Below, piece after piece: positions 2,344 to 62,699 of a stretch of DNA of 64,000 nucleotides. The notes beneath the pieces are model-generated. The model did not search any database. It had not been told where the DNA came from and saw nothing but the letters and a program-made list of their open reading frames with translations. How positions within the stretch are numbered: position 1 is the stretch's first letter; every line of letters begins with the position of its first letter. Where the stretch lies: contig NZ_CP065800.1 in NCBI RefSeq assembly GCF_023206215.1, positions 992,001 through 1,056,000 of the forward strand, in the 5' to 3' direction. The translations under genes were made by a program, and so were the position numbers. The stretch is from Butyrivibrio fibrisolvens. GTDB lineage: Bacteria > Bacillota > Clostridia > Lachnospirales > Lachnospiraceae.

Positions 2344-2639
2344 GGGACTTTGCACTTGCCAAACATACGCCACCCTTTGAGGCAGAGCCGATACGGACCG
2401 TTTATAATATATTTTCGTATCTTTTGAAGGTGTTATAAAATTCAGGAGCATTATATCTGAATCTTTATATTCTTCTTAGGGTCCACATGTCTGAGCGAAG
2501 CGAGTTTGGACCCTAGAATATAAAGATCCAGATATCATGCCCTGAATTATAACACCTTCAAGATACGAAAATGTATTATAAACGGTCCGCATCGGCTCTG
2601 CCTCAGAGGGTGGCATATGTTTGGCAAGTGCGAAGTCCC
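2344..2639 (-). repeat. Long palindromic element, copy P1
   Basis: This is a 296-nt near-continuous inverted repeat. The left arm 2344-2484 pairs with the right arm 2508-2639 around a loop containing TGAGCGAAGCGAG. Pairing resumes outside a 2-nt mismatch (TAATATTA at 2334-2341 and 2642-2649). An asymmetric internal loop lies near the middle, with CCAGATATCATGCCCTG on one side. Its arms are almost the same as those of copy P5 (62404), in inverted orientation. It lies between the stop codon of the InlB-repeat gene and the start of aguA, both on the minus strand. No open frame of substance is present. It is a member of a five-copy family in this window. Confidence 0.9.
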
Positions 2640-2658
2640 GGTAATATTATTTTATCAA

Positions 2659-3981
2659 TCAATTCTTAACCCATGATGCATGCAGTGTTACATTAGGGAA
2701 TACCGTCTCATAAACAGTTGTCTTACTTCCTTCGTTGGTAGATACGTAGATCTTTCCGGTGGACGGGTCTATACTGATGTCTTCTACCTCTTTGGAGATG
2801 TCAATAGACCAGGTTCCTGCATAATCACCAGACATTGTGAATACGTTGACCTTCTGGTTGCCCTTCCAGTTATAGGCATCAAAACATGCGGTAAGTGCAT
2901 ATATGAAGTTGCCGTCTACAGTCATGCCCTGTATGCAGTAACCTTGCTGGTAGTTGGCACTTACATCTTTCCAGCCTGCTATCTCAAAATTGTAATTTAC
3001 AAGGAAGAAGCATGCTTTGCCGTTATCATTTTTGCCCATTACATAATAGGCACCATTATAATAGGCAATAGCATATACATTTTTGACACCTTCTATATGG
3101 TGGGTTGTGACATAATTGAGGTTCGAATCAACCTCCATGATATCGGATGCATATCCGGGGCGTGTGCCACCTTCTGCGATATAGATATGTCCGTTATCTG
3201 TGTTATAGCATAAAGCATTGCCATGATCGAACCATAGGTTATGAACCTGAGCGACAGTCTTGCCTGCTGTGAGGTCGTACTTGACGAGATTGGTCTCGTA
3301 GTGGGACAGGTCGCCGGCATAGTAGCTTGCATCATTGATAGATGCTGCAAATACTACGTATCTATGGGAGTTCTGTGTGAAAACAGTTGATCCCTGAACA
3401 CTCTTAAATGAATAGTTTGTATATACACTGGGCTTACCGGCGCTTATAGTCTTAAGCTTGGTAGAGCGCATATTGCATTTGCGAAGGTTGGAAACTGCCT
3501 GGCCGTTGGCATATACGTTGCCGCTGTTATCAACCCATCCTGCAAAAGTATAGCCATCTTTGGTATATGCATTAGCCCGAAGCGATGTAGTCTGATCATA
3601 GCTTATAAGCTGATCATTCATACTGCCGGATGTAGCACCATTGCCGTCAAAAGAGATCTTGAATACCTGCGGTTCCCAGGATGCATATAACTTTAAATTA
3701 TCAACGCCTGTGTACATAACAGAGCCCTGATCCGCATATCCTACCCCGGTGCCGTCACTACTTGTATTCCATCCGCGGAAGCGGTAGCCGGTTCTTGTAT
3801 ATTTGTTGGCAGGAAGAGTAGAAACTGATGTGGTACTAAAGGCAGCAGCGCCCATCTCGCCTGTTCCACCGTTAGCATTAAATGTTACCTTGTAACTGCC
3901 GGCTGCATAGACGTTTGTACTGTTACCTGAGAAAAAAACAATAACGATTATTACTGATAAGAATGCAAAGAATCTTCTCAT
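2659..3981 (-). CDS. Secreted protein with InlB-type repeats and a propeller-like insert
   Basis: A 440-residue exported protein of unknown function. A signal peptide spans about residues 1-27 (hydrophobic stretch, then VYAAG). Residues 29-102 form a complete Listeria-Bacteroides (Flg_new/InlB B) repeat ending KLYASWE. A second repeat starts at about 107 (FKISFDGNGATSGSM) but stops after YANGQAVSNL. Its closing strand, NVTLHASW, appears only at the extreme C-terminus (about 430-437). The roughly 250 residues between resemble a beta-propeller or extracellular binding domain, with recurring short strands and Gly/Tyr/Asn-rich turns. No anchor (LPXTG or membrane segment) is seen at the C-terminus. 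Role in adhesion or surface binding is inference. Confidence 0.72.
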   Translation of the reverse strand: MRRFFAFLSVIIVIVFFSGNSTNVYAAGSYKVTFNANGGTGEMGAAAFSTTSVSTLPANKYTRTGYRFRGWNTSSDGTGVGYADQGSVMYTGVDNLKLYASWEPQVFKISFDGNGATSGSMNDQLISYDQTTSLRANAYTKDGYTFAGWVDNSGNVYANGQAVSNLRKCNMRSTKLKTISAGKPSVYTNYSFKSVQGSTVFTQNSHRYVVFAASINDASYYAGDLSHYETNLVKYDLTAGKTVAQVHNLWFDHGNALCYNTDNGHIYIAEGGTRPGYASDIMEVDSNLNYVTTHHIEGVKNVYAIAYYNGAYYVMGKNDNGKACFFLVNYNFEIAGWKDVSANYQQGYCIQGMTVDGNFIYALTACFDAYNWKGNQKVNVFTMSGDYAGTWSIDISKEVEDISIDPSTGKIYVSTNEGSKTTVYETVFPNVTLHASWVKN

Positions 3982-4217
3982 ATTTTCACCTCGTAAGTCA
4001 TGTTGCTAATTGGATGAATCGATATGAGACGAGACAGGCGAAAAATCAGTAAGCCATGTCTCTAACACCAAATTCAAACAAAAAACAAGAAATTCTAGTA
4101 ATATGGACGAAACGTAGTTATATTATATCATATAAGGGATAGTCATTCTTTTGTGCATATAGTAGAAATTTGCCCCTTAGAATGAACATTATTGATTTGT
4201 ATAAGAGGTTCTTAGTG

Positions 4218-4904
4218 ATGTTAAGAGATGTGAATTTTGAAGATATATCTGATGGATTTGTATATAAGCCTGATGATCTTGTAAATGTAGGTTGTAACGA
4301 GTGCATGGGCTGTAGCGACTGCTGCAGGATAACAGGAGACTCCATAATCCTTGATCCATATGACATCTATAACCTGTGCAAGGGTCTTGGCCGAAGCTTT
4401 GCAGATATGATGGAGAAGGAGATAGAGATAAGACTTGTTGATAACTTAATCCTACCCAATCTTATAACCTATGATGAAGATCATCCTGACAAAGAAGAAA
4501 AATGTGCCTTTTTAAATGATGAAAACCGCTGCACGGTGCATGCATTCAGACCGGGCTTTTGTCGCCTTTTCCCAATGGGAAGATTGTATGATGAGAATGG
4601 CATGCACTACTTCTTGCAGGTTAATGAATGCACAAGGCCCGGGTCTCAAAGATATCCGGTAAAACTTAGAGACTGGATAGGGATTGAAAACCTTGCCCAG
4701 TACGAGGAGTTCGTAGTAAGCTGGCATGACTTTTGTAAGAAGATGGGAGAAGCACTTACTAAAGTGCCTGAGCCAAAGAGGACTAATACTGCCAGATATA
4801 TATTGCAGGTATTCTATGTAGAGCCTTACAAAGTGGGGATGTCCTTCTGGGATCAGTTTGATAGGAGGCTGGCGGAAGTGTCTGCACGCCTTGGCATAAG
4901 GTAA
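4218..4904 (+). CDS. YkgJ-family cysteine cluster protein
   Basis: A 228-residue cytoplasmic protein with the YkgJ/FliB-like metal-binding cysteine cluster. It has C26, C29, C32, C35 and C36 in CNECMGCSDCC, then EKCAFLNDENRCTVHAFRP and GFCRLFPMG. The family binds Zn or Fe-S; its biochemical role is mostly unknown. The frame is open from 4170, with a TTG there and an ATG at 4182. The ATG at 4218 is chosen because an AGAGG site lies 9 nt upstream and relatives begin MLRDV-x-x-E-ISDG. It ends 66 bp before rpe on the same strand and may be co-transcribed with it. Confidence 0.8.
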   Translation: MLRDVNFEDISDGFVYKPDDLVNVGCNECMGCSDCCRITGDSIILDPYDIYNLCKGLGRSFADMMEKEIEIRLVDNLILPNLITYDEDHPDKEEKCAFLNDENRCTVHAFRPGFCRLFPMGRLYDENGMHYFLQVNECTRPGSQRYPVKLRDWIGIENLAQYEEFVVSWHDFCKKMGEALTKVPEPKRTNTARYILQVFYVEPYKVGMSFWDQFDRRLAEVSARLGIR

Positions 4905-4970
4905 TCTTGAATTTTATATTCAAGATTGTATAATGAGACGTATGGTATATGGCAAAAGAAAGGATTATAT

Positions 4971-5624
4971 ATGAACATTCTTGCACCATCTATTTTATCA
5001 GCAGATTTCAAAAATCTGGGGAGGCAGCTTATCGACTGCCAGAGCGCCGGAGCGCAGTATATTCACATTGACATTATGGACGGAGTGTTCGTCCCTTCTA
5101 TTTCTTTTGGACTTCCAGTTATTAAGAGCATCAGAGATGCGTCAGACGCAGTATTTGATGTTCATCTCATGATCACCAATCCCATAAGATATATCAAAGA
5201 GTTTGCAGCAGTTGGCGCAGACATCATTACTTTCCATCAGGAAGCAGCGCCTGATCCATGGGCTGTTATAGAGCTGATTCATTCTTATGGCAAGAAGGCA
5301 GGCATATCCATAAAGCCCGGAACTCCTATAGATGTTCTTGAACCTTATCTTAAGAATGTGGACATGGTTCTTATCATGAGCGTAGAACCGGGATTTGGCG
5401 GTCAGAAATATATTCCTTCATCTACAGACAAGATTCGTGATCTTAGAAATCACCTCAATACTCTTGGCCTTAAAGATCTTGATATAGAAGTTGATGGCGG
5501 CATCAAGACAGACAATGTTGAGATGGTTGTAAATGCCGGCGCCAACGTAATAGTAGCAGGCTCAGCCATCTTCAATGGCAACGTTCAGGCCAATGTCAAA
5601 GAATTTCTGACTAAGATCGGGTGA
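4971..5624 (+). CDS. rpe: Ribulose-phosphate 3-epimerase
   Basis: Interconverts ribulose 5-phosphate and xylulose 5-phosphate in the pentose phosphate pathway. The protein is a TIM barrel of 217 residues, the usual length. It starts MNILAPSILSADF and carries HIDIMDGVFVPSISFG (metal-binding His/Asp), DVHLMI, VLIMSVEPGFGGQ and DIEVDGGI, the classic Rpe signatures. The ATG at 4971 has an AAAGGA site 7 nt upstream; the open frame before it (from 4926) has no support. Transcription probably ends at the hairpin starting 5631. Confidence 0.95.
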   Translation: MNILAPSILSADFKNLGRQLIDCQSAGAQYIHIDIMDGVFVPSISFGLPVIKSIRDASDAVFDVHLMITNPIRYIKEFAAVGADIITFHQEAAPDPWAVIELIHSYGKKAGISIKPGTPIDVLEPYLKNVDMVLIMSVEPGFGGQKYIPSSTDKIRDLRNHLNTLGLKDLDIEVDGGIKTDNVEMVVNAGANVIVAGSAIFNGNVQANVKEFLTKIG

Positions 5625-5630
5625 TATAGA

Positions 5631-5688
5631 AAACTTCCCACCTAGGCGAAGAGGCGACCCAAATGCTCTTCGAGGGTGTGGGAAGTTT
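5631..5688. terminator. Hairpin between convergent rpe and SDR genes
   Basis: An 11-bp perfect outer stem (AAACTTCCCAC with its complement) encloses a second 7-bp stem (CGAAGAG/CTCTTCG). It can serve as a bidirectional terminator. The outer sequence AAAACTTCCCAC(C/T)TAGGCG matches the ends of palindrome copy P2 (7515) almost exactly. It may therefore be an internally deleted relative of that family. Confidence 0.7.
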
Positions 5689-5710
5689 GATGTATTGATA
5701 GATATGTAAA

Positions 5711-6493
5711 TTACCCCATTTTTTTGTGCTGCTGGTGGGCAACCATGGGGATTACAAGGCTTCCTGGGAGGAGTCTTGATAATGAACATGCAAGTTTCAT
5801 GCGAAGGGTAGGGACTATTACTACCTTTCTTTTTTTCATCATTTTAAGTGCGTATGATACGCAGGATGATGCAGACATGCCTTTAAGGGCGAAGACTACA
5901 TTCGCAACAGCATTGAACTGTGTGTCTACAGGGCCGGGGCATAGTACTCCTATATAGGTCTTGGAGGCGCTTTTTTTTAGTTCATAAGCTATGGCTCTTG
6001 TAAGGCTTACAACGTAGGCTTTGGTTGCATAATAAGTCGCCATGTATGGACCTGCAGGGAAGAGGCCAGCTGATGAGCCTATGTTAAGGATATATCCGCC
6101 ATCTTCCTTATCCATAAGCGGGAGCATTCTCTTAGTAAGGCGGTGAAGGGCTTTGATATTGACGTCCACCATTTCTATTTCGCGCTTTTCATCGCAGTCT
6201 TCAAATCTTCCGGACAGGCCAAAGCCTGCATTATTGATAAATACAGATAGCTTATTCTCTGGATTTTTGCCAAGTTCATCTTCGATAGATTCGCATAGCT
6301 TATTTATCTCTTTTTTCTTGGAAAGGTCTGCGGTATAGATACTGCTTGTACCTGCAAGTTCGCTTTGAATGGCTAGGAGTCTGTCCTTCCTTCTTGCGAC
6401 CATGATTACGTGGTAGCCTTCTTTAGAAAGCTGTCTTGAAAACTCCTCGCCAAGGCCTGAGCTTGCCCCTGTTACAACTGCTATATTTCTCAT
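5711..6493 (-). CDS. Short-chain dehydrogenase/reductase (SDR)
   Basis: A 260-residue classical SDR oxidoreductase using NAD(P)(H); substrate unknown. The cofactor motif TGASSGLG occupies residues 8-15, NNAG is at about 87-90, the catalytic serine is in NIGSSAG (about 140) and YxxxK is Tyr154/Lys158. Residues VARRKDR after strand 2 suggest an NADP preference. A C-terminal hydrophobic stretch (LSRLLPGSLVIPMVAHQQ) is typical of the DltE/YqjQ-like SDR group, some of which act on lipids. The start ATG follows GAGGTTGAT on the minus strand. It converges on rpe. Confidence 0.88.
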   Translation of the reverse strand: MRNIAVVTGASSGLGEEFSRQLSKEGYHVIMVARRKDRLLAIQSELAGTSSIYTADLSKKKEINKLCESIEDELGKNPENKLSVFINNAGFGLSGRFEDCDEKREIEMVDVNIKALHRLTKRMLPLMDKEDGGYILNIGSSAGLFPAGPYMATYYATKAYVVSLTRAIAYELKKSASKTYIGVLCPGPVDTQFNAVANVVFALKGMSASSCVSYALKMMKKRKVVIVPTLRMKLACSLSRLLPGSLVIPMVAHQQHKKMG

Positions 6494-6615
6494 ATCAACC
6501 TCATTTTTTATCTGTTTTTATAATTATAATATATATCAGTGTCATGGTCTTACTCGATTTATAAAAGTCATGAATAAAAATGTTACTAATACTCAAATAT
6601 CTATGGGTGAGAACA

Positions 6616-6637
6616 TTGTGTAAATAAATGTTATAAT
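6616..6637 (+). promoter_or_regulatory. Candidate extended -10 promoter
   Basis: TGTTATAAT at 6629-6637 has the extended -10 form (TGnTATAAT) in an AT-rich gap. It sits about 55 bp upstream of the TTG start at 6695. No good -35 is seen at the expected distance, which is common for extended -10 promoters. The gap between the divergent SDR and this gene has no other clear signal. Confidence 0.45.
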
Positions 6638-6694
6638 AACAAAGTTGTTAAGTTGCAGTTAGAAAAGACTAATTCTTGTGGGGAGGATAGACAT

Positions 6695-7498
6695 TTGAAA
6701 ATTGAAGTACACGGCGCATGGGGCGATGTTATAAAGGCGCAGGATGAAGGTGATGACAGCGTGGTACTTGCATGGGAAGGCGAGTACAGGAAGGATGACT
6801 ACATAGATTTCAAGGACCTTGTACCCGGGACTTTTTATAAAGTCAAGGTAGATCCTACAATTGAGGAATCCCTTATATTTGTAACTACAGATTCCTTCAG
6901 ATACACAATCCCTTTCTATGAAAAGAAGACAAGCTATAACCCAATGTCTTTTGTAGGTAACAGGCATCTTGTCAGTATCAGAAAGGCTTATGATCATGAG
7001 ATCAGAGCTTACAGGAATCTATGCCTTAATCCCTGCGATCAGCATGAAGTTACAGGCGTATACCCTCATGCATCAGCCAATGTTGAGACAAGAGGCGAAG
7101 CAGTATTTGCCGCAAGAAACGCAATAGACGGCGTCATAGAGACAAGGTCACACGGCGAGTGGCCCTATGAATCATGGGGCATCAACAGACAGGACGATGC
7201 AACTATCAAGATTGAGTTTGGTTATCCCGTTGATATTGAAGAGATCCGCTTATATACAAGAGCAGATTTTCCTCACGATAACTGGTGGATCAGAGGAACA
7301 ATTAAATTTTCTGATGGAAGCACAGAAACTGTAGATATGGACAAGAAGGTTCAAAAACCACATATCTTTTCAATTAAAAAGAAATCAGTGGAGTGGCTAA
7401 CACTTGGGGATCTTATTAAAGCAGACGATCCAAGCCCATTCCCTGCTCTTACACAGATCGAGGTGTACGGTACCCCAGCAGTAGGCTGTGGTAACTAA
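6695..7498 (+). CDS. Discoidin/F5-8C-like carbohydrate-associated protein
   Basis: A 267-residue protein without signal peptide or membrane segment. The C-terminal half (about 115-260) looks like a coagulation factor 5/8 type C-like beta-sandwich. It has YPHASANVETRGEAVF, AIDGV near the start of the fold, then IKIEFGYPVDIEEIRLYTR and ALTQIEVYG at the end. The N-terminal 100 residues form a separate, probably beta-rich domain. The start is taken as the TTG at 6695 because GGGGAGG lies 8 nt upstream; the earlier frame from 6653 lacks a site. Function is not known. An intracellular glycan-binding protein is possible but unproved. Confidence 0.62.
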   Translation: MKIEVHGAWGDVIKAQDEGDDSVVLAWEGEYRKDDYIDFKDLVPGTFYKVKVDPTIEESLIFVTTDSFRYTIPFYEKKTSYNPMSFVGNRHLVSIRKAYDHEIRAYRNLCLNPCDQHEVTGVYPHASANVETRGEAVFAARNAIDGVIETRSHGEWPYESWGINRQDDATIKIEFGYPVDIEEIRLYTRADFPHDNWWIRGTIKFSDGSTETVDMDKKVQKPHIFSIKKKSVEWLTLGDLIKADDPSPFPALTQIEVYGTPAVGCGN

Positions 7499-7514
7499 GT
7501 TTAATTATTCACAA

Positions 7515-7824
7515 AACTTCCCACTTAGGCGTAGCAGTGTCCTTGAAGGGTTTGCGGGAACACCTGCACCCGAGCAGAGTATAAATCATTGACATACTTT
7601 TTAAGTGTTTTATAAAAATTCATGAGTATGATAGATGGGGATTTTTATTCTTCTTGGGGTCCACATGTGTGAGCGAAGCGAGTTTGGCCCCCAGAATAAA
7701 AAGCACCAGATATCATGCCATGAATTTATAAAACAATTAAAAGCATGACAATGATTTATACTCTGCTCGGGTGTAGGTGTTCCTGCAAATCCTTCAAGGA
7801 CACGGCTATGCCTAAGTGGGGCTT
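7515..7824 (-). repeat. Long palindromic element, copy P2
   Basis: A 310-nt imperfect palindrome lies between two plus-strand genes. The outer stem AACTTCCCACTTAGGC pairs with GCCTAAGTGGGG-CTT. Inner segments such as GAGCAGAGTATAAATCATTG and TTTTATAAA-ATTCATG also find their complements on the other side. The loop core TGTGAGCGAAGCGAG and the asymmetric element CCAGATATCATGCC are shared with the other copies, while the outer arms differ from P1, P3 and P5. Unlike the other four copies, the core is antisense to the upstream gene. The right end lies only about 20 nt from the ribosome binding site of the next gene. Confidence 0.88.
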
Positions 7825-7863
7825 CACGCGGTACATAACAATTCAAGGAGGATGATTTTTTAC

Positions 7864-8985: not shown

Positions 8986-9052
8986 ACACATAATAAATCG
9001 AAATAACTTTAAATAACACAGCCTATACCGCCGGGAATGAAGACTGCAACTG

Positions 9053-9087
9053 AAAATGAAGACAGCCACTTAGACTGTCTTCATTTT
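9053..9087. terminator. Bidirectional terminator overlapping the AraC gene end
   Basis: A 13-bp perfect stem (AAAATGAAGACAG with CTGTCTTCATTTT) surrounds a 9-nt loop. It lies between the convergent DUF4317 and AraC-type genes and covers the last codons of the latter. Confidence 0.75.
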
Positions 9088-17868: not shown

Positions 17869-18160
17869 TTCGGGGCTTTGACAAATATGCATAGCCCAGT
17901 GCGAGAGCCCAGTCGGAGATGGTTTATAAAATATTTTCGCGTTTTTTGAAGGAGTTATAAAATTCAGGAGCGTGATAGATGTAACTTTATATTCCGCATA
18001 GGGGCCGCATGTCTGAGCGAAGCGAGTTTCGGCCCCTGGAATATAAAGTTACAGATATCATGCCCTGAATTATAACTCCTTCAATAACGAGAAAATACTT
18101 TATAAACCATCTCTGACTGGGCCCTCGCACTGGGCGACGCATATTTGTCAAAGCCCCGAA
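17869..18160 (-). repeat. Long palindromic element, copy P3
   Basis: A 292-nt palindrome. The outer stem TTCGGGGCTTTGACAAATATGC pairs with GCATATTTGTCAAAGCCCCGAA perfectly over 22 bp. Inner stems run almost without break to the loop TGAGCGAAGCGAG. It keeps the family's asymmetric element CAGATATCATGCCCTG, but its outer arms are unrelated to those of P1/P5 or P2/P4. It lies directly downstream of the AraC gene on the minus strand, 18 nt from that gene's stop. A 12-nt tag, GAAGGCAAAGCC, overlaps its right end and recurs near 62964. Confidence 0.9.
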
Positions 18161-36693: not shown

Positions 36694-37865
36694 AAACAGG
36701 TGTCGTTTCTTCCTTTTTCCAGAAATATACAATGATCCTTGCGCTCATTGTAGTAGTTATATTCTTTGCAATTACAACAGACGGCAAGATCCTGTATGCA
36801 CAGAATATCAATAACCTTATATCACAGAATGCATATGTATTCGTTCTTGCAACGGGTATGCTCATGTGTATCCTTACAGGTGGTAACATCGATCTTGCGG
36901 TTGGATCTGTAGTCTGCTTTGCAGGCGGCGTAGGTGCGGTAATGCTTAAGAGTGGCCTTAATGTATGGATCGCAGTACTTGCAATGCTTGTTATAGGTCT
37001 TCTTATCGGATACTTCCAGGGATTTTGGATTGCCTGGATCAGTGTACCTCCCTTTATAGCAACACTTGCAGGAATGTACGCTTTCAGAGGTCTTTCCAAT
37101 GTAGTACTTAACGGATATGCAGTTGCTATCAATGATAAGGTTTTCCTTAATGTATTTGGCGGCGGTGCTGATTGCTATGTTCCTGATTTTTTCAAGGTAG
37201 AGAGCGTATCACTTAATGTGACCTGTCTTATAGCAGGCGCTATTGTAGCACTTATTTATCTGGCTACAACAATAAGCGGAGTTATCAAGGAAAAGAAACT
37301 TGCTATCGCTTCAGAGAACCCTGCGATCAAGCTTGTAAAGGCAGTTGTCATCTGCATTATCATTATGGTATTTGCATATATACTTGCAAGCTATAAGGGT
37401 ATTCCTTCAGGTCTTGTATGGATAGCTGCAGTAATGCTTATATACAACTATATACTTAACAACACTGCTATAGGTCGTTATCTGTATGCAGTAGGTGGTA
37501 ATGAGAAGGCTACTGCACTTTCCGGTGTTAATACCAAGCTCGTATACTTTATTGCATATGCGAACATGGGATTCCTTGCAGGTCTTGCCGGTATCCTTAC
37601 AGTAGCAAGAGCTTCATCAGCTCAGCCTACATATGGTCAGGGATATGAGATGGATGCTATTGCTGCCTGCTTCATAGGTGGCGCATCTGCTTATGGCGGA
37701 ACAGGTAAGATATCCGGAGTATTCATAGGTGCGGCTCTTCTTGGCGTAATCAACCAGGGCATGAGTATCATGGGTGTAGACTCTAACTATCAGAGAGTAG
37801 TAAAGGGTATAGTACTCCTTCTGGCAGTTATGTTTGATATCATGTCCAAGAGAGAGAAGCAGTAA
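36690..37865 (+). CDS. mmsB: Monosaccharide ABC transporter permease 1 (MmsB/GguB)
   Basis: A 391-residue CUT2 permease with about ten membrane segments. The family signature [19 protein letters not shown] lies near residue 60, and [18 protein letters not shown] and [19 protein letters not shown] follow later. It starts within the end of the ATPase gene. A second, clearly homologous permease follows 16 bp downstream, so the channel may be a heterodimer. Confidence 0.92.
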
Positions 37866-37881
37866 GGGGGGACGAGAATAA

Positions 37882-39054
37882 ATGGAAAACGTTAAGAAAA
37901 TTTTAAAATCAAATACAAGACTTCTAATTCTTGTCGCCGTATATCTTTTCTTTTGTATTACTACTAATGGTGGTATTTTCTCACCACTTAACTTTAGTGC
38001 TCTGATAGTTCAGAATGCATATGTATATATCCTTGGATGCGGTATGCTCATGTGTATGCTGACAGGTGGTAACATCGATCTGTCCTGCGGATCATTCATA
38101 TGTTTCCTTGGATCTGTTGGCGGTGTGATGATGGTAGTAATGAAATGGAATGTCGGACTATCTATCGTTGCAATGCTGCTGATAGGTATCATCTATGGAT
38201 GCATACTTGGAGCACTTATTGCTTATGTTAATATCCCGCCGTGGATCGCAACCCTTGTTGGTTATCTTGCATTCAGAGGAATAGGAACATCAATCCTTTC
38301 TGCTAACAGCACAACAGGTTCAATTGCTCCTATCCCGCCTGCATACCTTAAGATTTTCTCAGGTAAGCTTTTTGAAACAACCGCCAAGACAATGAATATT
38401 CCTTGTATGGTATTTGGAATAGTCAGTGTTATCATCATAGCTGTTCTTGAGATCAGAAGCAGAAGCGTTAAGATCTCTAAGGGATATGCACATGATTCAT
38501 TGACTGCTATGATTGCTAAGATCGTAGTATTTGGCGCATTCATCATGCTTTTTGCATATAAGCTTGCATATGCAGGTGGTATACCTACAGCTCTTATATG
38601 GGCTCTTGCAATAGTTCTTATCTATGCTTTTATTACAGAGAAGACTACCATCGGACGTTACTTCTATACAATAGGTGGTAACAGAGAGGCTACAAGACTT
38701 TCTGGTATTGATACCAAAAAGATACTTTTCCTTGCATACCTTAATATGGCAGTTCTTACTGTAATCAGTGCATGGACCGTAGTAGCAAGATTCCAGGCTG
38801 CTAACTCAACAGCAGGAACAAACTTTGAGATGGATGCTATCTCAGCCTGCGTAGTAGGTGGTGTATCTGCATACGGTGGTAAGGGATCAGTATTTGGAGT
38901 AGTTATTGGTGCTACACTTATAGGTGTTATCAACCTTGGAATGAGCCTTATGACTATAGATCCTAACTATCAGAAAGTTATCAAGGGTGTCGTTTTGCTT
39001 GCTGCAGTTGCATTTGATATCTTCTCAGCAAGAATGGCTGCCAAGAAAAAGTAA
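37882..39054 (+). CDS. Monosaccharide ABC transporter permease 2 (paralogue)
   Basis: A 390-residue CUT2 permease paralogous to the preceding gene: [35 protein letters not shown] and GGVSAYGGKGSVFGVVIGA line up along the full length. Its central cytoplasmic or periplasmic loop (STTGSIAPIPPAYLKIFSG) differs. Standard systems of this type have one permease gene forming a homodimer. Retention of two suggests a heterodimer or broader substrate range. AGGGGGG precedes the ATG. Confidence 0.9.
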   Translation: MENVKKILKSNTRLLILVAVYLFFCITTNGGIFSPLNFSALIVQNAYVYILGCGMLMCMLTGGNIDLSCGSFICFLGSVGGVMMVVMKWNVGLSIVAMLLIGIIYGCILGALIAYVNIPPWIATLVGYLAFRGIGTSILSANSTTGSIAPIPPAYLKIFSGKLFETTAKTMNIPCMVFGIVSVIIIAVLEIRSRSVKISKGYAHDSLTAMIAKIVVFGAFIMLFAYKLAYAGGIPTALIWALAIVLIYAFITEKTTIGRYFYTIGGNREATRLSGIDTKKILFLAYLNMAVLTVISAWTVVARFQAANSTAGTNFEMDAISACVVGGVSAYGGKGSVFGVVIGATLIGVINLGMSLMTIDPNYQKVIKGVVLLAAVAFDIFSARMAAKKK

Positions 39055-44847: not shown

Positions 44848-44858
44848 GTGGAGGAAAC

Positions 44859-45174
44859 GTCCCACTCGGGAGGCGAAGTATCCGCTAAAGGCTATGCGAA
44901 GGTACGTAGCCCTCGGACGGATAGTATATAAATAATTGGCGCGCTGTTAATTGTTTTACAATTCATGGCATGATATCTGGAAATTTTTATTCTGGGGTCC
45001 GAAACTCGCTGACGCTCAGACATGCGGACCCCATGCAGAATAAAAATCTCCATCTATCACGCTCATAAATTTTGTAAAACAATTAAAAGCGCGCCAATTA
45101 TTTATATACTATCCGTCCGAGGGCCACTTACCTTCGCATAGCCTTTAGCGGATACTTCGCCTCCCAAGTGGGAC
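44859..45174 (+). repeat. Long palindromic element, copy P4
   Basis: A 316-nt palindrome. The outer stem GTCCCACT...GGAGGCGAAGTATCCGC pairs with GCGGATACTTCGCCTCCCAAGTGGGAC, and inner stems run to the loop. The loop core reads ACTCGCTGACGCTCAGACATG, where the other copies have CTTCG in the middle. It keeps CATGATATCTGG and the facing GATAGATGG element. It starts 11 nt after the stop of the binding-protein gene and lies between convergent genes, so it can end transcription in both directions. The family core is in the sense direction of the upstream gene. Confidence 0.88.
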
Positions 45175-45194
45175 TATCGCCGATTAATTATAAA

Positions 45195-48491: not shown

Positions 48492-48654
48492 GGGAATGCG
48501 GATGGTATTATCATAGGCCGATTTTGAAAATGTTCTTCGGTTTTCTTATGTCGTGCGAAGCTGCAGTATAGCATGTCCACGGAAGCGTAGCAGGACATTA
48601 GAAAACCGAAGGTTATTTTCACATGAGGCCTATGATAATACCATCCGCATTCCC
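48492..48654. repeat. Large hairpin with perfect 28-bp stem upstream of the pantothenate operon
   Basis: The 28-nt arm at 48492-48519 (starting GGGAATGCGGATGGTATT) and its exact complement at 48627-48654 form the outer stem. Inside, CTTCGGTTTTCT pairs with AGAAAACCGAAG (12 bp) and ATGTC with GACAT. The 40-nt terminal loop contains GCTGC/GTAGC. The sequence is unrelated to the P family. A 12-nt piece of the first arm, GCGGATGGTATT, recurs at 48746-48757, closer to panG. Confidence 0.88.
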
Positions 48655-53106: not shown

Positions 53107-53117
53107 TATGGATTATC

Positions 53118-54310: not shown

Positions 54311-54326
54311 AACAATATGAATTCAA

Positions 54327-54818: not shown

Positions 54819-55022
54819 TTCAATTTCCTTTTGGTTCTTATATTAAGCGACTTTAGAAAATGCCTTATGCCAGTTATCTTATGCTGGCATATAGGGCGTT
54901 TGATGACAGGCAAAGTGCATTTTTCTTAAGACGCTTACTATACTATTCGCTATCTATTATAACTGATTACGGTTATTGCAAGTTTGATGATTTTTACAAA
55001 AAAGCTTTAGCCATCAATAGTG

Positions 55023-56372: not shown

Positions 56373-56427
56373 GATAATCCTCCTAAAACAAGTATAGCAC
56401 AATTACATTGTGGGATATAGAATGCGC

Positions 56428-56486
56428 CAAACTTACCACCTTGGTGAGATTTCCTCGGACATGGCACTGATCAAGTGGTAAGTTTG
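56428..56486. repeat. Short hairpin with P2-like outer stem
   Basis: CAAACTTACCACcTTG pairs with CAAGTGGTAAGTTTG (15 bp with one bulge) around a 28-nt loop. The ends recall the outer stem AACTTCCCAC(C/T)T of copy P2 and the hairpin at 5631. It lies between divergent promoters, so it is not a terminator. Confidence 0.6.
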
Positions 56487-56578
56487 CTAAAATGCATAAA
56501 AAGCAAGTGCAATTGAGTGTTTGAGGTGGTATAGTTATTAAAAATCCTAAATAAACAGCATAAAAAGGGGATGGGGAA

Positions 56579-56776
56579 ATGTATTACGTAGAAGTTATTG
56601 TTCTTTTGATCATCGGTATGTACGGCCTTGCGCAGGCTTTTGTAAGAAACAGCGTTGCAAAAGATTCTAAGGGCAATGCTAAGAGCACAAAGCCTATTAA
56701 AGTATCCGGTGCACTTCTTGCACTTGTGTCATGGCTTCTGGCTGGATATATCATCTATCATTATCTGGGAGTGTAA
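56579..56776 (+). CDS. Small membrane protein
   Basis: A 65-residue protein with two membrane helices (VEVIVLLIIGMYGLAQAFV at 5-23; ALLALVSWLLAGYIIYHYL at 45-63) and a short basic, Lys/Ser-rich loop between them. GGGGATGGGG lies just before the ATG. It is likely a real small gene, of unknown function. It is followed at once by structured leader L2. Confidence 0.65.
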   Translation: MYYVEVIVLLIIGMYGLAQAFVRNSVAKDSKGNAKSTKPIKVSGALLALVSWLLAGYIIYHYLGV

Positions 56777-56777
56777 A

Positions 56778-56872
56778 AAGTTTGAAAGTGTTCCACTTTC
56801 AAACCCAAATTGGTGTCGCGAGCACCACCAATTTGAAGCATTAGTTACTTCCTTTTCTCGCGACATGAGGTT
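56778..56872 (+). promoter_or_regulatory. Structured leader L2 with possible pseudoknot at the ribosome binding site
   Basis: Hairpin GTTTGAAAGTG-ttc-CACTTTCAAAC is followed by hairpin CAAATTGGTG/CACCAATTTG (56806-56835). The loop of the second contains GTCGCGAG (56815-56822), an exact 8-nt complement of CTCGCGAC at 56857-56864, which abuts ATGAGGTT. TTGAAGCATTAGTT (14 nt) and CTCGC-x-ACATGAGGTT are shared with leader L1 at 21732. The first hairpin plus flank recurs exactly, inverted, at 30219. Confidence 0.65.
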
Positions 56873-58424
56873 AAAACATGGCATTATGAATGAATTCAAC
56901 GCTTTAGAATGCATTAATAAAATCTGGGACAGATTACAAAAGGCAGGGTTATTAAATGGCGGAAGCGGGAGTATTCACAGTCTTTTGGCAGATCAGGGCG
57001 GATGCAGGATATTTGAAGAATATGTTTATCCATATAGCGCTTCAAGGATGCATAGGATGTTCTCTGTTACTAAGTCTTTTGTATCTCTTGCTATAGGCTT
57101 TCTTATAGAAGAGGGGAAGTTATCTTTAGAAGATAAGATCGTGACTTTTTTCTCTGAATATAAGCCTGAAGGGGGATTCCATCCGTATCTTTCTGATATG
57201 ACGATCAGGGATATGCTTCGTATGGAGACCTGTCATACGTCTACGACCTACAAGTTCCATATAAATATTAACTGGGTCGAGAGCTTTTTTGTCACACTGC
57301 CTTCTCATAGAAGCGGCAAGGTGTTTAATTATGATACTTCATCGTCACATACTCTTGCGGCTCTTGTTAAGAAGTTATCCGGTATGGGAGTGCTTGATTA
57401 TCTTAGGACCAAGATTCCTTCGAAATATATTTTTTCCAAAGATGCATATATTATCACTGACCCTTTTGGGGACGAGATAGGCGGGGCAGGGCTTATGTGC
57501 TATCCTGAGGATCTTCTTAAAGTTGGAAGATTCGTAATGGATGAGCTTTTGAAAGGTGATAAGCTGTGTGATGGTCAAAACGGGGAGAGCCTGTCAGAGG
57601 ACGCTGCCTTGGCATTTTGTAAAGGTGATCATTGCACAGAGGTAACAAGCTTTGGAGATTATATTAAAGAAGCTGTGAGCTTTAAAGTTCCTAATATCCA
57701 GACCGGCCAGGTGACTGAGGAGCGGCAGGGATACGGATATCAGTTCTGGCGGATCAGGGGCGGCTTTTGTATGTACGGAATGGGTGGTCAGTACGTCCTG
57801 TTCTATCCCCAGTATGATCTTGTGATCGTGACAACTGCTGATCTTCAGAATATTAAGGGCGGCACCCAGCCTCTGCTTGATATCATTCACGATAGCCTTT
57901 TGGAATATGCTCCTTCTTTTTCCAAGTATGAAAAAGATATAGAGGAGTGCACTTTATTAAAGAATTATAGCCCATGTTTTGACTATACTTATAGAATACT
58001 TAATGAGCCACTGACTGATGGTTTTAAAGAATCAGGTGATAAGGCAAGGTTTGAGTCTTTTCATATAAGTTATGGTGATAGTGGCTGCCTGTCCATAAAG
58101 CAAAGATCGGGTAGCGGCGTCATAGATTACATTATTCCTTTTGATCTGACTAAAGAATGTGAAGGAAGTCTTCCTCTTGTGGATCCTGCCACAGGGCAGT
58201 CTCTAAGCGCCACCAGCAAGGAAGTTCCTTTTATATCCAAATCCGGATGGACGGCAAGTGATACTTTATATATAGAACTGAGCCTTATAGGAGAAGATGT
58301 TGGATCTATCCATATCAACATGAATATTTCTGCTGATAATCTCACAGTTCAGATGAGGAAGATAGTAGAAGCAAGGTTTGAAGACTTTACGGGATTTATC
58401 GAAGGTGTGGCAGATAGTATTTAG
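56865..58424 (+). CDS. Serine hydrolase, class C beta-lactamase-like esterase
   Basis: About 519 residues, cytoplasmic by prediction. The beta-lactamase family domain has SVTK (nucleophile Ser, SxxK) within MFSVTKSFVSLAIGFLIEEG, YDT-S in FNYDTSSSHTLAALVKKL (YxN-like) and GMGGQYVLFYP near the third motif. The C-terminal 150 residues form an extra beta domain. It is probably an esterase or D-Ala peptidase homologue, not a drug-resistance enzyme. Starts possible: ATG at 56865, overlapping the GAGG site, or ATG at 56886, 15 nt beyond GAGG. The upstream frame from 56655 is not used. Leader L2 precedes it directly. Confidence 0.75.
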   Translation: MRLKHGIMNEFNALECINKIWDRLQKAGLLNGGSGSIHSLLADQGGCRIFEEYVYPYSASRMHRMFSVTKSFVSLAIGFLIEEGKLSLEDKIVTFFSEYKPEGGFHPYLSDMTIRDMLRMETCHTSTTYKFHININWVESFFVTLPSHRSGKVFNYDTSSSHTLAALVKKLSGMGVLDYLRTKIPSKYIFSKDAYIITDPFGDEIGGAGLMCYPEDLLKVGRFVMDELLKGDKLCDGQNGESLSEDAALAFCKGDHCTEVTSFGDYIKEAVSFKVPNIQTGQVTEERQGYGYQFWRIRGGFCMYGMGGQYVLFYPQYDLVIVTTADLQNIKGGTQPLLDIIHDSLLEYAPSFSKYEKDIEECTLLKNYSPCFDYTYRILNEPLTDGFKESGDKARFESFHISYGDSGCLSIKQRSGSGVIDYIIPFDLTKECEGSLPLVDPATGQSLSATSKEVPFISKSGWTASDTLYIELSLIGEDVGSIHINMNISADNLTVQMRKIVEARFEDFTGFIEGVADSI

Positions 58425-58484
58425 AATATTAGCATAGCTAAAACATTTGGAATTTATTATTTCTCGCGATGTTATTGTAAATAT

Positions 58485-58534
58485 GTCATAATAGATATGA
58501 ACGGTATAACGCACATATCTGTTATGACTTTTTT
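58485..58534 (+). terminator. Terminator after the serine hydrolase gene
   Basis: GTCATAATAGATATG pairs with CATATCTGTTATGAC (one mismatch) and is followed by a T run. Confidence 0.85.
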
Positions 58535-58603
58535 ATTTGCAAATTTACTATCATGCGGGGGACATAGATATCAATAGGCAGTAAATGGGAGAGGTTTTGC
58601 CTC

Positions 58604-59839
58604 ATGAAAAAGTCTTCTCTTGCTGTTCTGTGTACATGCATCTTAATAGTTAATTCTATAGCGCTTCCTGTACTTGCGGCAAGGCAGCCCTCTGATACCT
58701 TGACGGATTACAGGGATATATTTATTGATGCCTTAAATGAAGCGAGACAGGAAGTTGGTCCTGAAGAAGATTACAGCGGCATGACAGATGAACAGAAGCA
58801 GGAAGCTATAGAGAAGGCCGAGGAGGAAGATGACAAGGCAAGGGATGAGGCTAAAGAAAGCGTAGAGAATATTCAGGATGATCTTAAGGATCAGCAGCAG
58901 GCATCCGGCCCTGTAGGTATAATCATTGATGCTGATATGTCCACAGACGTAGATGATGTCACAGCAGTTCGCATAGCGCAGGAACTTGAGTATCAGGGAC
59001 TGTGCGATATCCTGGGCTTTGCATACTGCTCCAGGAATCCTTCAGGCAATAATATCAAGGCAGCAGAAGGCCTTTTTGACTATGCAGGACTTACAGACGT
59101 ACCTATAGCCAAGGCGTCTGTAAGCTATGAATACGGTGGAAACGGAGATTACTGGGGAGTTTTGTGGCAGTACAAGACTACAAGTCATCCCGTATACGAC
59201 AATGCCGTAACTATGTACAAAGAAGTCCTATCCGCCCATGACGGTAAGATAAGGATAGTGACTACCGGATTTCTAACTAATATACGTGAGCTTCTCAAAG
59301 ATCCCCAAGGCTATGAACTTGTCAAAGACAAGGTTGATGCTATCTATATAACAGGAGGAGAGTATCAGGGACTCTGTTATAACCTCTCCTATGATGAGAC
59401 CAGGGTTGGAGCCACTGATTATGTTGTTAAGAATAGCCCTGTACCATTGTATTTCACAATGGATGTCCTTGGTGCTATAAGATGCGGAGGTCATCTTACT
59501 AAGATGGATACAGCTAACAGTGATATCTTGTCCAAGGCATATGCACAGTTCGGTCTTGAAGATGGCCAGAACTACGGCAACTGCGATGGAACAGCGGTAT
59601 ACTGTGCGGTGACTCAGGATACAGGTTATGGAGGATACTTCGAAGCTATCCCTTGCGATTTTAAGATCAATCTAAGTAACGGAGGTGTCATCACTCAGAC
59701 CAGGAGTGATACAGTTACCGGAGTATATATGCTGGAAGCTACCTATACAAAAGATAAATATGTACTGTACGGATCAGCGACTTATACTAATCTTTTTGAT
59801 TCATTTATTGAAGCGGATTATCTTAGAAGGCATCAATAA
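58604..59839 (+). CDS. Exported nucleoside hydrolase-like protein
   Basis: A 411-residue protein. A signal peptide (about 1-26, ending VLAARQ) is followed by a Glu/Lys-rich predicted coiled coil (about 50-100). The remainder is an inosine-uridine nucleoside hydrolase fold: IIIDADMSTDVDDVTAVRIA supplies the Ca2+-binding DxDxxxDxDD cluster, IRIVTTGFLTNIRELL and AIYITGGEYQG follow. Nucleoside hydrolases are usually cytoplasmic; an exported form with a coiled coil is unusual and may scavenge nucleosides or act on other ribosides. It has GAGAGG before the ATG. Confidence 0.75.
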   Translation: MKKSSLAVLCTCILIVNSIALPVLAARQPSDTLTDYRDIFIDALNEARQEVGPEEDYSGMTDEQKQEAIEKAEEEDDKARDEAKESVENIQDDLKDQQQASGPVGIIIDADMSTDVDDVTAVRIAQELEYQGLCDILGFAYCSRNPSGNNIKAAEGLFDYAGLTDVPIAKASVSYEYGGNGDYWGVLWQYKTTSHPVYDNAVTMYKEVLSAHDGKIRIVTTGFLTNIRELLKDPQGYELVKDKVDAIYITGGEYQGLCYNLSYDETRVGATDYVVKNSPVPLYFTMDVLGAIRCGGHLTKMDTANSDILSKAYAQFGLEDGQNYGNCDGTAVYCAVTQDTGYGGYFEAIPCDFKINLSNGGVITQTRSDTVTGVYMLEATYTKDKYVLYGSATYTNLFDSFIEADYLRRHQ

Positions 59840-59907
59840 AACGTTGCGAACGTTTCAAGTACATCACTGTACTTGAAATACGTTTGGCATTCGTAGTATG
59901 AGGTTTA
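59840..59907 (+). promoter_or_regulatory. Structured element L3a
   Basis: AACGT-tgcga-ACGTT hairpin is followed by TTTCAAGTACA-tcac-TGTACTTGAAA (11-bp stem). The loop bases GCGAA can pair with TTCGT at 59890-59894, just before ATGAGGTT (59898-59905). This is the same plan as leaders L1 and L2, with hairpin order changed. No gene starts here; the next element L3b follows at once. Confidence 0.5.
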
Positions 59908-60034
59908 GTGTGAAAAATTGTATCGATATAACAATTTTTCACACGGCTATTTGATACGAGCCCAAATAGCCATTATGGCAAATCCAAATCTGATATTCAT
60001 ATTGCCAGACTCTCACAAGTACTCGTCATGAAGG
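59908..60034 (+). promoter_or_regulatory. Structured leader L3b before the lipoprotein gene
   Basis: Hairpin GTGTGAAAAATTGT/ACAATTTTTCACAC (14 bp) is followed by GGCTATTTG-atacgagcc-CAAATAGCC. The loop ACGAG (59956-59960) is complementary to CTCGT at 60022-60026, 1 nt before ATGAAGG. TGGCAA/TTGCCA lies between. AAGGA is the ribosome binding site of the gene at 60041. The order is the same as in leader L2. Confidence 0.55.
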
Positions 60035-60040
60035 AATAAT

Positions 60041-61495
60041 ATGAACAACTTTCATTCTAAGTATAACTTTATAGTGGCAGTCCTGGTAGCCTCTATGGTT
60101 TTGGGGCTAATGTCTTGCAAAGCATTTAGAAACTCATCTATAGAGGTTATATTTGCTGACAATATTATTCAAATAGACTGCGGTGACAACTATACTATAA
60201 AAAGTGAACCGGATGATAATGGCATATATACTATAAAGCATAAAGAAGATGGAAAAAATATATTGTTATCTTTCTATACAGATGCAGATTTTAGCGCTCT
60301 TGAAGCTGATATGATGACCTGGACCAGAAAGGGTTATGTGACCGGAGCTTCTTTTTTATTTGATGCATCAGGAAATGGAAAGCTTGATTATAGCGGGTTT
60401 GATGGTACGACTTCATACTATAGGCAGGTTAGATACCTGGCAGGTACAGACATCTATGCCATATTAGATGCTGCGTCAACAGTAGACATGACAGAACTTG
60501 ACCAGATAAGCATTGTGGTCAAGGAGATCTCAGCGCCTTTTGACCACTCCAAGAGAATCAATGAACTTGCCAATTATATGCAGAACTATGCAGGAACCAA
60601 AGCCAATATTGAAGAAGGTCAGAAGGCTTATGATGGAAGCTCTGCTGCAAGTGGTGATGGGGGATTAACAGATGCATCCGGCATTGGAACATCCCCTTTA
60701 GATAATGCCAACATAGATGAAAGTCTCTTGACATTGGACGGCGTTACAAGTGTGCTGGAAGAGTTTGGATATACTAGTACATCTAAAGAAGAGACTGATG
60801 ATTATAAGACAATCCTATATACCAAGGCAGGAAGTGCAACTCAGATAAGTCTTACGATCATGTATGATCTTTCGCAAACAGATGATCGCTACAGGGATGA
60901 GCTTTCATCAACAGGATATGACAAGGTTCACAATCCGGTAGTAATGCGCGTTCCGAATGATGAAGGATATGCAAGGTACTATGCAGCAATGCATGATGAT
61001 GACGCAATACTTATAATATATACAGATGATGCAGATGAGTGCAGCAGGATTTGTGCAAGGTTTGGACTTGTATATCAGGCAGATTCTGATGCCTATGATG
61101 AGATAACCTATGGAGAAGAACCGGCAGTCCCTGCAGAAGGCGTTGTAGATCTGTCCCTTGAAAAATACAGGGCAGTAGCATCATATTTTGGAATAATCGA
61201 TGATATCTCCGAAACTCTTGATGATGGTAATATTGTGGGCGGAGATTTCATGGACGGGACGACTATGAGCCATGCGTATGTGGATTCCAGATATGTTCAG
61301 GCGACATTTGAAGAGATGCTCAAAGCTTATGGGATACAAGGCCCTAACCCATGTGTATTCAAGATGAATTCAAGATTTATAGTGATAGCATATGATACAG
61401 GTGGTAATATAATCATGGTGTCCAGTACGTCAGGAACAAGGCTTGCCAGGATATGCGGATATTTCGGACTTGATGTTACCAAGGATGACCAATGA
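60041..61495 (+). CDS. Lipoprotein or membrane-anchored protein of unknown function
   Basis: A 484-residue exported protein. The N-terminus has a hydrophobic segment (FIVAVLVASMVLGLMSCK) with a possible lipobox LMSC at about 27. The middle and C-terminal parts contain two similar segments: ILIIYTDDADECSRICARFG (about 325) and a later MVSSTSGTRLARICGYFGL, each ending a mixed alpha/beta unit, so two diverged repeat domains may exist. No family is recognised. AAGGA lies 6 nt upstream of the ATG. It is 32 bp before the fructokinase gene and may be co-transcribed. Confidence 0.62.
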   Translation: MNNFHSKYNFIVAVLVASMVLGLMSCKAFRNSSIEVIFADNIIQIDCGDNYTIKSEPDDNGIYTIKHKEDGKNILLSFYTDADFSALEADMMTWTRKGYVTGASFLFDASGNGKLDYSGFDGTTSYYRQVRYLAGTDIYAILDAASTVDMTELDQISIVVKEISAPFDHSKRINELANYMQNYAGTKANIEEGQKAYDGSSAASGDGGLTDASGIGTSPLDNANIDESLLTLDGVTSVLEEFGYTSTSKEETDDYKTILYTKAGSATQISLTIMYDLSQTDDRYRDELSSTGYDKVHNPVVMRVPNDEGYARYYAAMHDDDAILIIYTDDADECSRICARFGLVYQADSDAYDEITYGEEPAVPAEGVVDLSLEKYRAVASYFGIIDDISETLDDGNIVGGDFMDGTTMSHAYVDSRYVQATFEEMLKAYGIQGPNPCVFKMNSRFIVIAYDTGGNIIMVSSTSGTRLARICGYFGLDVTKDDQ

Positions 61496-61526
61496 CAATA
61501 AAAAATTATAAGAGGAGAAGAGAAGT

Positions 61527-62396
61527 ATGATTTATGGTGGTATTGAAGCGGGCGGAACTAAGATGATATGCGTTATAGGCGATGAGAACGGCAGGATACT
61601 TGACAGGATGCAGATTCCTACCAAGACTCCCGAAGAGACTATGCCTATAATGATCGATTATTTTAAAGGCAAGGATATCAAAGCTCTCGGAATAGCATGC
61701 TTTGGGCCTATTGATCTTAACAGGGATTCTAAGACCTATGGTTATATAACATCTACGCCCAAGCTTGCCTGGAAGAACTATGACATAGTCGGTGCTTTCA
61801 AAAAAGAGCTGGGTGTACCGATAGGTTTTGATACAGATGTTAACGGATCACTCCTTGGAGAGATAACCTGGGGATGTGCCAAAGGCCTTACGGATGCTCT
61901 GTATCTCACTATAGGAACAGGTGTCGGCGGCGGAGTTATGGCAGGTGGCAAGCTCCTGCACGGCATGCTCCATCCTGAACTTGGACATATCAAAATGGCA
62001 GTAGCAGATGGAGATACATATAAAGGCAAGTGCCCATACCACGGAACCTGTTTTGAAGGAATGGCAGCAGGTCCTGCTATTGAAGACAGATGGGGCAAAA
62101 AAGCTGTAGAACTTGCAGATGACGATAAAGTCTGGGACCTTGAAAGTACATATATAGCTCAGGCTCTGTGCACATATATCCTGACACTTAGCCCTCAGAT
62201 CATCATCCTTGGCGGAGGAGTAATGCATCAGGAGCAGCTCTTTCCACTTATAAGGAAAAAAGTCCTGGAGCAGCTAAACGGATATATTGTAACCAAAGAA
62301 CTTAAAGACATAGATAACTATATAGTTCCTGCCAGCCTAAACGATGACCAGGGAATAATGGGATCCATAAAGCTTGCAATGGACGCAGATATCTAA
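61527..62396 (+). CDS. scrK: ROK family fructokinase
   Basis: A 289-residue sugar kinase. The ATP-binding motif is GGIEAGGTKMICVIG at the start, and TIGTGVGGGVMAGGKL and the zinc-binding CPYHGTCFEGMAAGPAIEDRWG are characteristic of ROK fructokinases (B. subtilis YdhR-like), as is HPELGHIKM. It phosphorylates fructose to fructose 6-phosphate, probably fructose released from raffinose or sucrose after galactose removal. GGAGAAGAG lies before the ATG. Confidence 0.9.
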   Translation: MIYGGIEAGGTKMICVIGDENGRILDRMQIPTKTPEETMPIMIDYFKGKDIKALGIACFGPIDLNRDSKTYGYITSTPKLAWKNYDIVGAFKKELGVPIGFDTDVNGSLLGEITWGCAKGLTDALYLTIGTGVGGGVMAGGKLLHGMLHPELGHIKMAVADGDTYKGKCPYHGTCFEGMAAGPAIEDRWGKKAVELADDDKVWDLESTYIAQALCTYILTLSPQIIILGGGVMHQEQLFPLIRKKVLEQLNGYIVTKELKDIDNYIVPASLNDDQGIMGSIKLAMDADI

Positions 62397-62403
62397 TTTA
62401 TTG

Positions 62404-62699
62404 AAACTTCGCACTTGCCAAACATACGCCACCCTTTGAGGCAGCGCCGATGCGGATAGTTTATAATGCATTTTCATATCTTGAAGGTGTTATAATTCAG
62501 GGCATGATATCTGGATTTTTATATTCTAGGGTCTGAAACTCGCTTCGCTCAGACATGCAGACCCTAAGAAGAATATAAAAATCCATCTCTCATGCTCCTG
62601 AATTTTATAACATCTTCAAAAGATATGAAAATGCATTATAAACTATCCGCATCGGTGCTGCCTCAAAGGGTGGCGTATGTTTGGCAAGTGCGAAGTTTG
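62404..62699 (+). repeat. Long palindromic element, copy P5
   Basis: A 296-nt palindrome whose arms pair almost throughout: AAACTTCGCACTTGCCAAAC at the left and its exact complement at the right. The loop core is AACTCGCTTCGCTCAGACATG. It differs from copy P1 (inverted) at many paired positions, for example GGACCG/CGGTCC in P1 and GGATAG/CTATCC here, or CGTATC/GATACG and CATATC/GATATG. It begins 8 nt after the fructokinase stop, core in the sense direction. Confidence 0.9.

Follow-up and report, generated by a model that had tools for sequence, protein, structure and literature searches.

What are the five long palindromes that lie between genes in a 64,000-nucleotide stretch of the Butyrivibrio fibrisolvens chromosome? 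The stretch, called the window here, is positions 992001-1056000 of contig C1 of a genome (G000) of 4.45 Mb in two contigs. An initial annotation had described the palindromes as near-end-to-end hairpins with a common tip, closing stem and internal loop, and had left open whether they are large non-coding RNAs, mRNA 3' structures or a mobile family. All five hairpins (P1 to P5) are present, those of P4 and P5 with their cores on the minus strand. In a repeat search of the window their arms measured 78-103 nt, with 91-96% complementarity, and enclosed a centre of 110-137 nt; predicted RNA folds span nearly the full length, with minimum free energies of -199 to -252 kcal/mol for 316-356 nt. For each of four core stretches folded, 0 of 200 shuffles gave a fold at least as stable, and the tip, internal loop and closing stem in common agree with their first description. 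We identify the palindromes as miniature inverted-repeat transposable elements (MITEs), a type of non-autonomous DNA transposon, with IS4-type ends and an unusual build. Of the possibilities first raised, the mobile family is thus the one that stood, while an RNA role for the core is backed indirectly by a strand-specific asymmetry between G.T and A.C mispairs. We consider the whole explanation, in which IS4-ended MITEs have template-switched arms, a core kept as a one-strand hairpin and a tip module that is wider than the MITE, to be very probably correct.

The initial annotation had taken transposase-type ends as evidence against its reading; such ends are present, as terminal inverted repeats (TIRs) that it had overlooked. 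In many copies the outermost arms carry TIRs with the consensus TCAAACTTCSCACTTG, and the 14-mer AAACTTCSCACTTG occurs at 193 places in this genome at up to one mismatch, compared with 1 for its reversal. Conservation of the core was rightly recognized, but it is not confined to the core, as the ends are also conserved in many copies. In the window, AAACTTCSCACTTG bounds P5 exactly at both ends (full element 62401-62701, minus strand; core 62488-62611; TIRs 62404-62417 and 62685-62698). It is found at one end of P2 with one mismatch (7514-7826, plus strand; core 7610-7732; left TIR 7514-7527) and at one end of P4 with two (44855-45178, minus strand; core 44954-45078; TIR 44855-44868), the right end of each being placed by eye. 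Both ends are degraded (3 and 2 mismatches) in P1, a full element of 300 bp (2342-2641, plus strand; core 2432-2554, tip 2486-2507). P3 (17869-18160, plus strand; core 17954-18077) has no AAACTTCSCACTTG end within 3 mismatches.

The same TIRs face each other 1,633 bp apart at four places in a genus-mate, G314, where they bound an element of ~1.64 kb that encodes a 475-aa protein. The protein scores 569.5 bits on the NCBIfam model NF049925 (IS4_4; cut-off 250), and the matched transposase has DDE domains. A second genus-mate, G369, holds the same ~1.64-kb insertion sequence (IS), with exact 14-bp ends in both genomes. In another genome, G350, an element of 1,575 bp is bounded by ACTAAAACTTCCCA, and its transposase is 48% identical; these ends share AAACTTCCCA, 10 of 14 bases, with the 14-bp TIR.

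Traces of insertion accompany the ends. The loci fetched contain 64 TIR-bounded elements: 45 of ~300 bp, with at most 4 mismatches over both 14-bp ends, 18 short ones and 1 IS. An exact 8-bp direct repeat lies 3 nt outside AAACTT on both sides in 7 of the 64 (shuffled-flank mean 0.67, maximum 5), and a 7-bp repeat at up to one mismatch in 15 (shuffled-flank mean 2.23, maximum 7); this register gave the most matches among the 64 offsets scanned. P1 is flanked by TAATATTA at 2334-2341 and by the identical 8 bases at 2642-2649. Two relatives, G299 and G374, are syntenic with the window; P1 and P2 are absent at the corresponding intergenic sites in both (2 of 2 relatives examined), and P3 at its site in G374 (1 of 1 examined). 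The elements therefore have the features of MITEs, being shorter than 500 bp, too short for a 475-aa transposase, bounded by TIRs, associated with target duplications and missing from orthologous sites. Their TIR is the same as that of an autonomous IS of the genus (G314 and G369), as is expected for a MITE of an IS4-type element. An IS4_4-type DDE transposase would have moved them in trans via their AAACTTCSCACTTG ends.

Several observations weigh against this origin. Target duplications are kept by a minority of copies, and many copies, P3 included, have no recognisable TIR. Relatives of the transposase in G363 (51%) and G308 (45%) are without such a TIR pair in the stretches examined, which lie near contig ends. 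P5 has no DNA match in G314 or G369, and the likeness of the MITE to the IS is therefore confined to the ends. Finally, no intact IS4_4 transposase was found in G000, G299, G374 or G331, G299 having only a fragment with two stops, and it is therefore from the ends that we infer mobilisation by such an enzyme. As none was found in G000, the copies there look stranded, or orphaned, unless another transposase serves them.

The 18 short TIR pairs span 42-177 bp, and 15 of them are in G000; some of those at 4 mismatches may be chance. Two more are in the window, at 5631-5688 (58 bp; 2 and 3 mismatches) and 56429-56485 (57 bp; 3 and 1 mismatches), and are probable relics without a centre. The short pairs that were read resemble, by eye, central deletions joined at a few common bases, and slippage across the palindrome at short direct repeats may leave such relics with both ends. 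Half copies at locus L062 were considered as a carrier of the mobilising transposase and rejected, since they are the right half of a single copy, present on both sides of an IS1634-type insertion as direct repeats of 116 bp. That insertion (L062:2949-5137; G000:C1:951126-953314), an IS with a 579-aa transposase, lies inside the palindrome, and the exact 116-bp repeat that flanks it is an unusually long target duplication. At L119:950-1420 and L008, a small extra palindrome (GTTACA.CCTGTAAC-like letters) stands within one arm and is probably a nested insertion of another repeat.

How many copies are there? The expectation of further copies was borne out by a covariance model built from 48 cores of G000. 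The matches listed number 102 in G000 (all at least 124.8 bits), P1 to P5 among them, 45 in G299 and 3 in G374, at least 150 in total; the search scored the best 150 candidates per genome, and its totals of 149, 140 and 25 include opposite-strand matches of the same palindromes and did not serve as copy numbers. At the contig ends, one of the 102 was probably counted a second time, giving at least 101 copies. At those ends (L120, L121), 261 bases near position 4,106,980 of C1 are identical to those near 2,165, which would fit a circular chromosome with an end overlap of ~11 kb, and repeats in this presumed overlap are counted twice. The core motif CCAGATATCATGCC is found at 96 places at up to one mismatch, a few of them non-elements, compared with 0 for the reversed control. 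The median element length is 292 bp (95 G000 copies), and near-identical copies (97-99%) stand at scattered sites. Across 299 genomes that represent the family with one genome per genus, the 20-base core pattern at up to one mismatch is confined to this one. A search of named species' genomes, which omits records near this genome, gave 3 isolated exact matches in distant organisms, taken as chance.

Could the palindromes instead be host genes for large non-coding RNAs, or mRNA 3' structures, under selection for a host function, with the repeats and ends incidental? The core would suit such a role. Mean pairwise identity is 0.71-0.93 over 110 core columns compared with 0.33-0.53 over the 40-50 outermost columns to left and right, compensatory change is present in 21 of the 38 core pairs predicted by RNAalifold, and the core has an RNA-like excess of G.T mispairs. 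Many copies also lie near a stop codon: among 84 copies, 47 stops are no more than 40 bp away on one side or the other. Host selection does not account for TIRs common with an IS, target duplications, empty orthologous sites or near-identical copies at scattered places, however, and the orientation of copies to their genes is mixed (tandem sense 23 and antisense 30, of 95 G000 copies), with the G.T excess independent of it. Accordingly, we regard a host RNA gene as very improbable and the MITE as the better account. The initial annotation had also stated that no described RNA or mobile element has this form. For RNA this agrees with the Rfam searches made: the window gave 0 matches above the gathering threshold, P4 at E<=1 matched only MIR7807 (18.6 bits compared with a threshold of 90), and 20 other tip-bearing loci matched only T-box, TwoAYGGAY and tRNA, all outside the hairpins. 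For mobile elements, transposase-type ends are present, and no published MITE matched.

If the core is not a host RNA gene, what has kept it? Strand-symmetric mutation gives equal numbers of G.T and A.C mispairs. Counted on the core strand in 149 copies (P1 to P5 are included, here and in the split by genome), from an alignment that penalises all mispairs alike, the G.T:A.C ratio changes from 168:17 for the core to 94:46 for the inner arm and 137:186 for the outer arm. The core excess is also seen by distinct position and type (37:11), as parsimony events on the core alignment (72:11), without the commonest site (127:17), and in G000 (122:12) and G299 (42:5) separately. Since G.T mispairs were tolerated on the core strand and A.C mispairs were not, and since the tip is common to long hairpins with unrelated arms across Clostridia, the inner 120 nt may, less surely than the points above, have been kept as a one-strand hairpin, most likely an RNA.

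An RNA core has to be weighed against several further counts. Relative to a tandem gene, sense copies (49:3) and antisense copies (50:3) have the same excess, which speaks against the core acting within a host message. The excess is mostly inherited, mispairs found in one copy only being 14:8 and those in up to three copies 35:12 (summed over contexts). Outside Butyrivibrio it is weak, 46:28 over the first 45 pairs and then 32:40, 48:57 and 60:45, and one hairpin per genus gives 19:10, which is not significant; the RNA reading therefore rests on Butyrivibrio. (L264 and L275, where the tip is in no long hairpin, were left out of these and the folding counts for other genera.) In addition, a single-stranded, strand-specific DNA hairpin may produce the same asymmetry, and the core could act as such a hairpin in transposition or replication rather than as RNA. 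G.T is better tolerated than A.C in DNA hairpins too, and the asymmetry is the same whichever way transcription runs, as would suit DNA. On the other hand, copies have no orientation bias between the chromosome halves (+/- 25:22 and 28:23; 98 C1 copies, origin assumed at base 1), and DDE enzymes, the type of the matched transposase, act on double-stranded ends. A DNA hairpin is thus unlikely, if well short of negligible, and RNA is preferred. Either way, the constraint on the core looks to have acted in spreading lineages, not in each stranded copy nor for the neighbouring gene. A role of the core as a terminator was dropped by eye, with no T run beyond the closing stem, whichever way it is read. 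Scores for promoter-like sites directed into the core (core strand 71 of 148, opposite strand 15 of 148) had no shuffle control and were not used.

The arms raise a different question, namely how they stay complementary while their sequence drifts. The first arm analysis left out 13 of 99 core matches that had no left half or were too short, opposite-strand or non-element, including P1 (L018). Where several copies had one and the same 120-nt core, they were merged, P5 thus being represented by L001. Both steps affect the arm, transcript-strand and 84-copy gene-distance counts, and a degenerate minus-strand copy, L046, was left out of the transcript-strand mispair and mirrored-change analyses. 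In pairwise comparison of copies, the share of left-arm changes exactly mirrored in the right arm rises from 69% at 0-10% divergence to 89% at 40-50%. Above the lowest divergence class it is 0.81-0.89, where independent arms would give about d/3. These figures are a description rather than a count of events, as pairs share ancestry, the arms were selected as palindromic and no shuffled control was included. One arm may template the other during replication, a template-switch correction of imperfect palindromes that would keep complementarity while the sequence drifts. Passages of PMC8794818 describe template switching as a known route to keep or restore stem complementarity via multi-base compensatory changes. 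The likeness to those cases would lie in the compensatory changes and the difference in their setting, RNA genes there and the arms of mobile palindromes here.

Selection for long double-stranded RNA, for example as a substrate of RNase III, might equally give mirrored arm changes in place of DNA-level copying between arms, and on the transcripts of 47 tandem-context copies G.U exceeds A.C by 83:49. On the core strand, however, the outer-arm G.T mispairs are not above A.C in the total given above nor clearly by genome (110:102 in G000, 26:78 in G299), counts made by core strand and not by transcript strand, and the copies stand in either orientation to their genes. We therefore think such selection quite improbable as the cause and favor template switching between the arms.

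The copies have a polarity toward their neighbors. In 140 copies of G000 and G299, 61 stops lie within 60 bp on the 3' side of the core compared with 34 on the other, and starts are split 31 to 4; G299 alone gives 22:13 and 8:1 in the same direction. Genes were called by simple open reading frame scripts, and start distances are rough. All 10 pairs of copies less than 1.3 kb apart on C1 are arranged (-,+), such as 1106721/1107224 and 2242714/2243159. An eleventh (-,+) pair is in L249, and the next closest pair listed, 1.45 kb apart (1654282, 1655732), is (-,-). Close (-,+) neighbors often belong to different subfamilies, and similar (-,+) pairs of tips are found in G404 and G644 (also L321, L322). 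Among 54 hairpins of other genera, 42 have their nearer gene on the 3' side of the tip, with stops 27:8 within 120 bp; L264, L275, L318 and L325, with the tip in no long hairpin, were left out of this count. The start-codon polarity of Butyrivibrio was considered as a general feature and rejected, as in these 54 hairpins starts are 4:4 within 60 bp and 10:9 within 120 bp. An orientation-dependent effect on transcription is one candidate explanation for the gene polarity.

How far does the tip reach beyond this MITE? The 22-base tip pattern, at up to two mismatches, is found in 22 of 299 genomes of the family and 22 of 298 genera, its own included; the reversed control matched 8 times in G000 and once in the other 298 genomes together. 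In loci read from other genera of the family, it stands at the tip of a hairpin in 26 of 28 (L264 and L275 being those where it does not). A GC-rich contig of G333, possibly a stray contig in a 78% complete genome, has a long palindrome that combines this tip with different arms. With one tip window taken per genus, the mean folding energy is -72.6 kcal/mol (n=18), compared with -41.3 for windows drawn at random from these loci (n=77). Across the phylum, TGTYTGAGCGNAGCGAGTTT at up to one mismatch is found in 14 of 398 genomes and 11 of 266 genera, its own included, at up to 38 places (G581). The matches read are at hairpin tips in 18 of 20 cases (not L318 and L325), as are 4 of 6 matches on viral contigs. 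Three of the viral contigs (L304, L305, L308) have, after the hairpin, a second A/T-rich hairpin, GATACTTT...AAAGTATC or similar, possibly a terminator or an attachment site. Arms and ends differ between the lineages that bear the tip; in G046, for example, five of the seven copies read begin, by eye, with a GTTAC.GTT-like end unlike the Butyrivibrio TIR.

Conservation of the tip more widely than this MITE is firm for the relatives read at the level of the Lachnospiraceae and less so for each single phylum match. The tip module is thus wider than the MITE, and the latter would be one among the palindromic lineages that bear this module. For the phylum, a caveat is that the reversal of TGTYTGAGCGNAGCGAGTTT, which resembles TGTYTGAGCGNAGCGAGTTT, matches 10 times in G000 and, of the other 13 genomes, five have 9 matches between them (G422 4, G461 2, and G527, G620 and G733 1 each), and the low counts of some phylum genomes may therefore be chance. 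More tentatively, the hairpins might form an unrecognised class of phylum-wide spread in the Clostridia, longer than 160 nt, with arms and ends specific to each lineage and a near-invariant 20-nt tip. Tip and inner stem would then form a module, functional as RNA or as one-strand DNA, that is borne by various palindromic transposons and aids spread or tolerance near genes, as the polarity to neighbouring genes suggests. We hold this possible yet rather doubtful, its odds being lowered by the 14:8 single-copy mispairs and the matches of the reversed control.

The window has other repeats too. An inverted repeat at 48492-48654, with 76-nt arms that are 83% complementary and an 11-nt centre, has neither the TIRs nor the tip of P1 to P5. 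At 36816-39026, two adjacent open reading frames have two direct repeats in common, one of 201 bp (71%) and one of 80 bp (83%), and are probably tandem gene duplicates.

Given the above, an odd repeat becomes a mobile element with a candidate transposase, and its ~150 natural copies provide material for the study of how palindromes keep their arms matched. The hairpin tip conserved in several families of Clostridia is unmatched in the searches made of the RNA-family library. Should the tip be a functional RNA, gut and rumen bacteria would have a feature that went unnoticed because the arms do not align. Searches of the open-licence literature on MITEs and repeats of Butyrivibrio and the Lachnospiraceae, on IS4-type and palindromic MITEs, on MITEs in connection with RNase III, and on long hairpins of Clostridia, gave no description of the palindromes, and a search with the letters of the tip returned only papers with titles on unrelated subjects.

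Compared with known systems, the palindromes are a new MITE family with IS4-type ends. Like the IS4 family, represented by NF049925 (IS4_4), they have terminal inverted repeats; unlike IS4_4 elements they have no transposase gene, and only the ends are in common. The annotated IS4_4 relatives are the ISTeha4 family of Tetragenococcus plasmids, 40% identical. REP and REPIN elements are moved by RAYT. Passages of PMC2817692, PMC3116915 and PMC3733652 on REP and REPIN elements with RAYT transposases describe high-copy intergenic palindromes, in which they resemble the present family. REPs are given as 20-40 bp in the relevant part of PMC3733652, whereas the elements here are ~300 bp and have IS4-type ends and, in some copies, target duplications; no search for a RAYT was made. 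The elements also resemble the prokaryotic MITEs, such as Correia, ERIC, QMITE1/2 and Chunjie, which passages of a review (PMC10969869) describe as shorter than 500 bp, with TIRs, direct repeats in young copies, many copies, truncated variants and predicted hairpin folds; the words "IS4", "hairpin" and "Lachnospir" do not occur in the text available of that review. Size, TIRs, direct repeats, copy number, truncated variants and hairpins are all shared. Unlike the MITEs in those passages, the P1 to P5 family is palindromic over the whole ~300 bp, its arms vary yet stay complementary, its centre is conserved besides its ends, and its tip is common to hairpins with other arms.

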